Positions 38,482 to 39,850 of a stretch of 64,000 nt of DNA are shown in pieces; the stretch's first letter is position 1; every line of letters starts with the position of its first letter. The notes below the pieces were generated by a model. The model worked only from the letters and a program-made list of their open reading frames with translations, ran no database searches and was not told the DNA's origin. The position numbers were made by a program, and so were the translations under genes. The DNA is from Methanobrevibacter gottschalkii DSM 11977 (GTDB taxonomy: Archaea; Methanobacteriota; Methanobacteria; Methanobacteriales; Methanobacteriaceae). The DNA is taken from contig NZ_RKRG01000001.1 in the NCBI RefSeq assembly GCF_003814835.1, positions 186,001 through 250,000 of the forward strand. Direction: 5' to 3'.

Positions 38482-38629
38482 TGGGGTCACAGGGATTTGA
38501 ACCCCGATCCTGGGATTTCTCTTGCCTCAGTACTCCAATTGTTCATCACAACAAGTACTGTTCAGTTACGCGTATATTTCTTCAAAGACAACTGGAGTCC
38601 CAGATGATGCCAGGTTACACCATAACCCC
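38482..38629 (-). tRNA. tRNA-Trp (CCA) with 75-nt intron
   Basis: The mature 73-nt tRNA folds with acceptor GGGGTTA/TGACCCC, a T-loop TTCAAAT and an anticodon stem TGGGA/TCCCA around CTCCA-G-A. The gene is interrupted after position 37. No CCA end is encoded. The exon-intron junctions can form a relaxed bulge-helix-bulge: the anticodon-loop CUCC faces AGAG of the intron, with the helix TGTC/GGCA next to it. Splicing there leaves G37 joined to A38. Confidence 0.93.
38517..38591 (-). ncRNA. tRNA-Trp intron resembling a box C/D 2'-O-methylation guide RNA
   Basis: The 75-nt intron carries, in order: TTGAAGA (38579-38585, a one-mismatch box C), CTGA (38562-38565, box D'), GTGATGA (38543-38549, perfect box C') and CTGA (38527-38530, box D). 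The guide before box D, CAATTGGAGT, pairs with A31-G37 of the tRNA plus the first three intron bases. The fifth base before box D is opposite C34, the classical methylation position. Known euryarchaeal tRNA-Trp introns guide modification of C34 and U39. The guide before D' (TATACGCGTAA) does not match U39. Confidence 0.8.
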
Positions 38630-38684: not shown

Positions 38685-39095
38685 TTATTCAAATTTCATT
38701 TGTCTATCAATACCAGTTATTTCATCAATTTCCAAACCTTTTTCAAGTGCATAATCTTTTTCAACACGATAATTGCCTTTTTTAGTACGGGGAGTATTAT
38801 CAGGCTCTAAAAATAACCATTTAGTATATTTAAATCTAACACCGATATACGGTTTAGCTCCAAAAATATTTGAGAATTCGCATAACTCCTCAATTTGAAT
38901 AGAATCAATATATATTTTATCTTTTGTAGTTGTTTTAACTTCAATAGCTAAATATAATTTACCATTTCCAGCAACAACATCAGGTAAGGACTTTTTAGTA
39001 GCCCCTCCAGATGCTGGAGCCCTCATAGCTGCAAAATTCCTTTCCCAAAGTTTATGTACTAACTCTCTTTCTTCAGCCGATCCTTTTTTAGCCAT
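38685..39095 (-). CDS. hjc: Holliday junction resolvase Hjc
   Basis: Hjc cuts four-way DNA junctions during recombination repair. The 136-residue protein begins MAKKGSAEERELVHKLWE with the catalytic Glu, then RAPASGG, the catalytic Asp of SLPDVVAGN, and the ExK of YLAIEVKTT. I start at 39095, where MAKKGS matches the family; an in-frame ATG lies five codons earlier. The C-terminal tail is longer than in the smallest Hjc proteins. It lies within the tRNA cluster, between tRNA-Glu and tRNA-Trp, on the same strand. Confidence 0.92.
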   Translation of the reverse strand: MAKKGSAEERELVHKLWERNFAAMRAPASGGATKKSLPDVVAGNGKLYLAIEVKTTTKDKIYIDSIQIEELCEFSNIFGAKPYIGVRFKYTKWLFLEPDNTPRTKKGNYRVEKDYALEKGLEIDEITGIDRQMKFE

Positions 39096-39158
39096 AACAA
39101 CACTCAACAAAGATAATAATTCATCTATAATACTAATTTTATATTAACATGATATATA

Positions 39159-39208: not shown

Positions 39209-39286
<78 letters not shown>

Positions 39287-39353
39287 ATAAGAACAACATA
39301 CAAAATGCAAATTACATTAAATAATCTTAAAAAATCAAAAATAGATTTATAAA

Positions 39354-39429
39354 TGGGGCCGGAGCCGAGATTCGAACCCGAGTCCCGGGATCCACAGTCC
39401 CGGAGGATGACCACCTACCCTACCCCGGC
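39354..39429 (-). tRNA. tRNA-His (GUG), CCA end encoded
   Basis: The acceptor GCCGGGG pairs with CTCCGGC, followed by discriminator C and an encoded CCA. Anticodon loop CTGTGGA gives GUG. Position -1 is T in the DNA, so the essential G-1 would have to be added after transcription (Thg1-type). It is the only tRNA in this cluster with an encoded CCA. Confidence 0.95.
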
Positions 39430-39459
39430 AAATGAAATAGATTAAAAAGTTGTAAGAAT

Positions 39460-39541
39460 GCGGGAGCAGGGATTTGAACCCTGGTAGACCTGCGTCAACA
39501 GGTCCTAAGCCTGTCCCCTTTGGCCTCTCGGGCACCCCCGC
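39460..39541 (-). tRNA. tRNA-Leu (UAG)
   Basis: The 82-nt class II tRNA has acceptor GCGGGGG/CTCCCGC, anticodon loop CTTAGGA (UAG), an extended variable arm after the anticodon stem (TGACGCAGGTCTA region) and T-loop GTTCAAATC. CCA is not encoded. Confidence 0.95.
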
Positions 39542-39593
39542 TTATGAAAACAAAGGATACATAGAAACCATAAAAAATCTTAACAAGTTTTTA

Positions 39594-39671
<78 letters not shown>

Positions 39672-39698
39672 ATATGAATATAAACTGTTTAATCAACA

Positions 39699-39772
39699 TG
39701 GGCCCAATGGGGTTCGAACCCATGGCCTTCCGGTTATGAGCCGGACGCTCTACCTGGCTAAGCTATGGGCCC
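39699..39772 (-). tRNA. tRNA with CAU anticodon (elongator Met or Ile2)
   Basis: The 74-nt gene has acceptor GGGCCCA/TGGGCCC, discriminator A and anticodon loop CTCATAA. The G1-C72 pair and the absence of initiator-type features exclude initiator tRNA. GGGCCC acceptors are common in archaeal Ile2, whose C34 is changed to agmatidine, so Met versus Ile2 is not settled by sequence reading. Confidence 0.9.
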
Positions 39773-39777
39773 AAAAG

Positions 39778-39850
<73 letters not shown>

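Follow-up and report, generated by a model that had tools for sequence, protein, structure and literature searches.

The intron of the tRNA-Trp gene studied here carries a box C/D guide aimed at C34 of its own pre-tRNA, and the second guide of the same intron, next to box D', lacks a match to U39 and is complementary to itself. Sequence comparisons across the order Methanobacteriales suggest that this D' guide has evolved order-wide as a self-pairing sequence, through which two intron copies would stick together. Our preferred reading, which we hold with slightly less than even confidence, is that the intron functions as a Cm34 guide and that its D' arm brings two RNA copies together by pairing in the cell. 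The gene lies in a 64,000-nucleotide stretch of DNA (the window) from an archaeal genome of 1.88 Mb in 6 contigs; unless stated otherwise, positions are those of the window.

The tRNA-Trp gene scored above the Rfam cut-off of 29 bits (Table 1), and ARAGORN, run with introns allowed, gave a mature tRNA of 73 nt and an intron of 75 nt. The intron reads UUGUC-U-UUGAAGA-AAUAUACGCGUAA-CUGA-ACAGUACUUGUU-GUGAUGA-ACAAUUGGAGUA-CUGA-GGCAAGAGAA, that is, stem, box C, D' guide, box D', spacer, box C', D guide, box D, and stem with splice region. A first-pass annotation of this DNA had put the intron length at 75 nt and listed its boxes in the order C-like, D', C', and D; both the sequence and the ARAGORN length bear this out. 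The order of the boxes and the guide lengths of about 12 nt are those of an archaeal box C/D guide RNA. Box C is among the weaker ones (5/7), and its assignment is supported by relatives that have UUGAUGA (G064 and G118) or AUGAAGA (G084) at the same site. The intron sits at the canonical 37/38 position, and the genome encodes a splicing endonuclease (one gene found), as expected of an archaeal tRNA intron; by eye, the central helix of the bulge-helix-bulge looks like 3 bp. A pattern for C34-guided tRNA-Trp introns recovered the same architecture in 121 of the 151 genomes of the order, covering 17 of 19 genera, and for this reason we do not regard the architecture as a product of chance.

Table 1. 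Features of the tRNA-Trp gene and its intron, in window positions.
Feature	Position	Strand	Basis or remark
tRNA-Trp(CCA) gene with intron	38482..38629	minus	Rfam RF00005, 37.7 bits; ARAGORN tRNA-Trp(cca)
5' exon of tRNA-Trp	38629..38592	minus	
3' exon of tRNA-Trp	38516..38482	minus	
75-nt box C/D guide RNA intron, after G37	38517..38591	minus	Sequence, ARAGORN length, order-wide conservation
UUGUC, terminal stem 5' strand of C/D K-turn	38587..38591	minus	Pairs with GGCAA; sequence and predicted fold
Box C-like UUGAAGA	38579..38585	minus	Matches RUGAUGA at 5/7
D' guide AAUAUACGCGUAA, without U39 match	38566..38578	minus	Genus-conserved
Self-complementary D' guide core UACGCGUA	38567..38574	minus	Perfect 8-nt self-complement
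Box D' CUGA	38562..38565	minus	Sequence
Box C' GUGAUGA	38543..38549	minus	Sequence; kept in relatives
D guide ACAAUUGGAGUA, aimed at C34	38531..38542	minus	11-bp duplex, C34 at D-5
Box D CUGA	38527..38530	minus	Sequence; C34 partner five bases upstream in 23/23 pre-tRNAs
GGCAA, terminal stem 3' strand	38522..38526	minus	Pairs with 38591..38587; predicted fold
Anticodon CCA	38593..38595	minus	C34 (predicted Cm34) at 38595
U39, without guide in the tRNA-Trp intron	38515	minus	At most 3 bp over U39

Several features of the surroundings and of copies elsewhere were recorded alongside. Upstream of the tRNA-Trp gene, on the same strand, six tRNA genes are clustered at 39211..39850 (minus), including two equal-scoring copies of tRNA-Glu(TTC), and a gene for the Hjc resolvase (38685..39110) lies between this cluster and tRNA-Trp. 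One genome of genus g7 has two tRNA-Trp genes on a single contig (G010:C87, at 24803 and 43285; L195) that are identical from the anticodon to box D. The tRNA-Trp introns of two genus g8 genomes (L196 and L197) contain a duplicated C'-spacer stretch (CAGUAUGAUGAUCAA...UAGUAUGAUGAUCAA), which creates an extra C'-like box.

The guide before box D forms a duplex of 11 bp, made of A31-G37 and the four intron bases UUGU, with one G-U pair. The pairing with A31-G37 and the placement of C34 opposite the fifth base had been proposed before and held; the number of intron bases had been put at three and is four. The survey took in 23 pre-tRNAs of 10 genera (nine of the order plus the sister lineage G151), and each had a C34 duplex of 10–13 bp that obeyed the +5 rule. 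Because exon and intron bases both take part, the duplex suits the unspliced pre-tRNA, on which the D guide would direct 2'-O-methylation of C34. Genes for Nop5 and fibrillarin are present and adjoin one another. By homology, the intron is very probably a working Cm34 guide. The fibrillarin gene, directly downstream of Nop5, runs into the window start (1..about 484; L281:346-2142), about 38 kb from the guide RNA. We also observed that the D'-C' spacer contains CAGUACU (38554..38560, minus), complementary to AGUACUG (38528..38534) at the D guide 3' end and box D; through this complementarity, the free pre-tRNA is predicted to fold into a hairpin that would mask the C34 guide. A shorter version of this pairing, CAGUA/UACUG, is readable in several genera.

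The second guide expected of such an intron was missing. Across the same 23 pre-tRNAs from 10 genera, the intron offered at most 5 bp over U39, with 3 bp in the present case, and U39 itself was there in all 23. Of the two guides that define a Haloferax-type intron (Cm34 and Um39), the C34 guide was found, and a U39 guide across the 3' splice junction was not; nor did we find a U39 guide at an unusual position in the intron. The U39 guide is thus absent order-wide as sampled, and also from G151, which makes this more than a local loss. A 2001 abstract on these introns reportedly called both duplexes, over C34 and over U39, conserved in euryarchaea. When a U39-guide pattern was run on a different archaeal phylum (147 genomes), it returned only scattered matches unlike tRNA introns, and the positive control for the U39 guide comes from the literature. 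A loose intron pattern run over contigs mostly matched bacterial sequence, and the four archaeal loci that we read were not tRNA introns. The first-pass annotation had stated that the D' guide is complementary neither to the U39 region nor to any other part of this tRNA; the first half of that statement stands, and the second is true only if the guide itself is excluded, since UACGCGUA is its own complement.

Within the genus, the D' guide is strongly conserved. Counted from the pattern rows, UACGCGUAACUGA was present in 54 of 55 own-genus matches, and the remaining match (G082) differs by one A-to-G change, whose effect on the palindrome is to replace an A-U pair with G-U. It had been proposed earlier that the intron was retargeted to another RNA or lost its second function, with conservation of the D' guide among close relatives as the test; on this point the proposal survives. 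Beyond the genus, the letters change and the self-complementarity stays. The D' segments fell into 36 distinct sequences, nearly all with a palindrome of 6–10 nt despite altered letters. Core variants across the order were UACGCGUA, ACGCGU, AGCGCGCU, GUGCGCAC, AGUGCGCACU, UGCGCA, UUGCGCAA, GUGCAC, and UGUACA, the core of G151 was AGGCGCGCUU with one G-U pair, and CGCG alone was retained in two genera (G010 and G105). In the sister genomes G127 and G129, the core letters have changed, and the palindrome of each, again perfect over 6 nt, lies in a different register. For 15 of 16 genera, the self-duplex was on average stronger than the duplex formed with the guides of other genera, and the D' guide was unpaired in the predicted pre-tRNA fold.

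We compared the frequency of palindromes with a null based on a tree of EF-2 proteins from 28 genomes. Eight columns of the core, aligned by us on CGCG as the anchor, entered the comparison. The simulation treated the columns as independent, with rates matched to parsimony counts and a root that was itself self-complementary. A Watson-Crick palindrome of at least 6 nt was present at 25 of 28 tips, compared with a simulated expectation of approximately 4 to 12 palindromic tips (p < 0.001 in every setting), although we note that the anchoring was our own choice and that the palindrome hypothesis was drawn from the same data on which it was tested. When G-U pairs were allowed, p ranged from about 0 to 0.03. 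The excess was unchanged when the two most divergent cores were left out or when nearly every genus was represented by one tip. As judged by this post hoc test, the D' guide has the covarying palindrome expected of a self-complementary RNA element. A 6-nt palindrome, CAAUUG, is likewise present in the D guide of this intron, where it is explained otherwise.

These palindromes could be of less consequence if the D' guide were an orphan without a partner, retained for a C'/D' half that needs a guide of about 12 nt, with its GC-alternating core owed to inertia or protein contacts. Palindromes arise more readily by chance where purine and pyrimidine letters alternate, and shuffles that keep purine/pyrimidine order often yield palindromes too, leaving most single guides unremarkable (median p 0.17). 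Box spacing is also kept, with D' segments of 10–16 nt, and, according to PMC7994747, tRNA-targeting guide RNAs often lack a target for one of their guides. However, an unused guide should drift, and the core is invariant in 54 of the 55 genus matches, where variation is seen in the spacer and at the segment's 5' end; the palindromes also exceed the tree-based null. We therefore consider an orphan guide rather unlikely. The broader suggestion that the intron lost its second function is unlikely as well, because one would not expect a covarying palindrome to persist in a guide without function.

A D' guide that is conserved and of normal length and position could instead have been retargeted to another RNA, for example 16S rRNA or an unlisted small RNA, where it would direct 2'-O-methylation. 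The search for such a target spanned 31 own tRNAs, which include all but a few isoacceptors, and the 23S rRNA, from about model position 400 on, of G114, the one of 12 relatives in which LSU was recovered. None of the 31 tRNAs paired with the D' guide better than the intron itself, which does so at 8/8 Watson-Crick positions, and the next best, tRNA-Cys, was rejected as a target at 7 bp including three or four wobbles. The G114 23S rRNA was rejected in the same way, as its best match to the D' guide studied here was, within the span covered, only 8 bp, below the average of shuffled guides. With other parts of the pre-tRNA, the D' guide paired over at most 5 bp here, and in two species of genus g9 over as many as 8 bp, wobbles included. 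A search of the readable genome for UUACGCGUA gave just two sites: one is the intron itself read on its opposite strand, and the other is palindromic. The latter (L002:1501-1510, equivalent to G000:C3:40529-40538) is the 10-nt palindrome TTACGCGTAA, in a locus without an Rfam match. Taken with the UUACGCGUA search, these scans leave the earlier proposal of retargeting unsupported. From genus to genus, the guide also varies in its letters and in its register to box D', and even sister genomes differ (UGUACA and GUGCAC), with the self-complementarity kept throughout; this is unlike a guide held to a fixed rRNA or tRNA target. We regard retargeting as improbable.

The pattern is better accommodated by guide-to-guide pairing, in which the self-complementary D' guide would occupy the place of the U39 guide and its core would pair with its counterpart in another copy of the intron or pre-tRNA. 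Such pairing could hold two guide RNAs together, plausibly inside a dimeric C/D particle; it may also stop the D' arm from engaging other RNAs and favor methylation in trans of each partner's C34. Most archaeal C/D particles free of substrate are dimers that contain two guide RNAs, and the guide sequence affects their oligomeric state (PMC7089733). Excised tRNA-Trp introns are circular RNAs in Thermococcus (PMC9014305) and Haloferax (PMC7714728). We put forward only tentatively, giving it about one chance in three, the fuller scheme for Methanobacteriales, in which two introns or pre-tRNAs are held to each other by the self-complementary guide that replaces the U39 guide, each methylates the C34 of the other in trans, and the guide-to-guide dimer is a working part of the box C/D particle.

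A palindrome might also act in DNA, as the site of a dimeric DNA-binding protein within the tRNA gene, since a dimer site is likewise palindromic and could drift as a palindrome. This is very unlikely, in that the G-U variants (G009, G082, and G151) preserve RNA pairing and break DNA symmetry, and in every match the core occupies the guide position, with box C before it and box D' after it. We give still less credence to self-targeted methylation, in which 2'-O-methylation of the D' guide in one intron would be directed by that of a second. The guide does find its in-register 8-bp match in the intron itself, and in many sequences the palindrome is centered at -6/-5, spanning the guide. The register nevertheless shifts in several genera (to -5/-4, -7/-6, or -8/-7), so the base methylated by self-targeting would not be constant.

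Whether the dimeric archaeal box C/D particle plays any part in the cell is described as an open question in the literature (PMC7089733). If guide-to-guide pairing is correct, the intron would be a natural guide RNA selected for self-pairing of its second guide, and mutating it would offer a direct test of whether the dimer matters there. It would also mean that an order of methanogens does without one of the two guides usually quoted for euryarchaeal tRNA-Trp, with the arm kept for something else. Should the palindrome be due to chance, the order-wide absence of the U39 guide would still qualify the general statement about these introns.

Short, GC-rich, single-stranded palindromes can join two copies of an RNA, as in palindromic kissing-loop dimer elements. 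The likeness to those elements is one of mechanism only and not of homology; here, the palindrome lies in a methylation guide and is not presented by a hairpin, and dimer formation is what we propose from it. The closest relative among known systems is the pre-tRNA-Trp intron of Haloferax volcanii, a box C/D RNA that guides Cm34 and Um39 (Clouet d'Orval 2001 and Singh 2004, as cited in PMC11408192, PMC7714728, and PMC4090602) and, by the accounts in PMC11408192 and PMC4090602, acts in trans for methylation of both C34 and U39. The two introns share the tRNA, the intron position, the box C/D architecture, and the C34 guide spanning the splice junction. In contrast to the Haloferax intron as summarized there, the present one lacks a U39 guide, has a self-complementary second guide, and is 75 nt long rather than 103 nt. 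Pyrococcus sR50, in the description given in PMC7994747, is similarly an intron-encoded C/D guide aimed at the anticodon of its own pre-tRNA; the second guide of the sR50 group is described there as aimed at position 39, whereas the one studied here is not. The arrangement also resembles the tRNA-targeting C/D sRNAs of Lui 2018, as cited in PMC7994747, in which one guide is directed at the wobble base and the other is without a known target. Unlike the orphan guides of those sRNAs, as they are presented in that source, the second guide of the tRNA-Trp intron is kept order-wide as a covarying palindrome.
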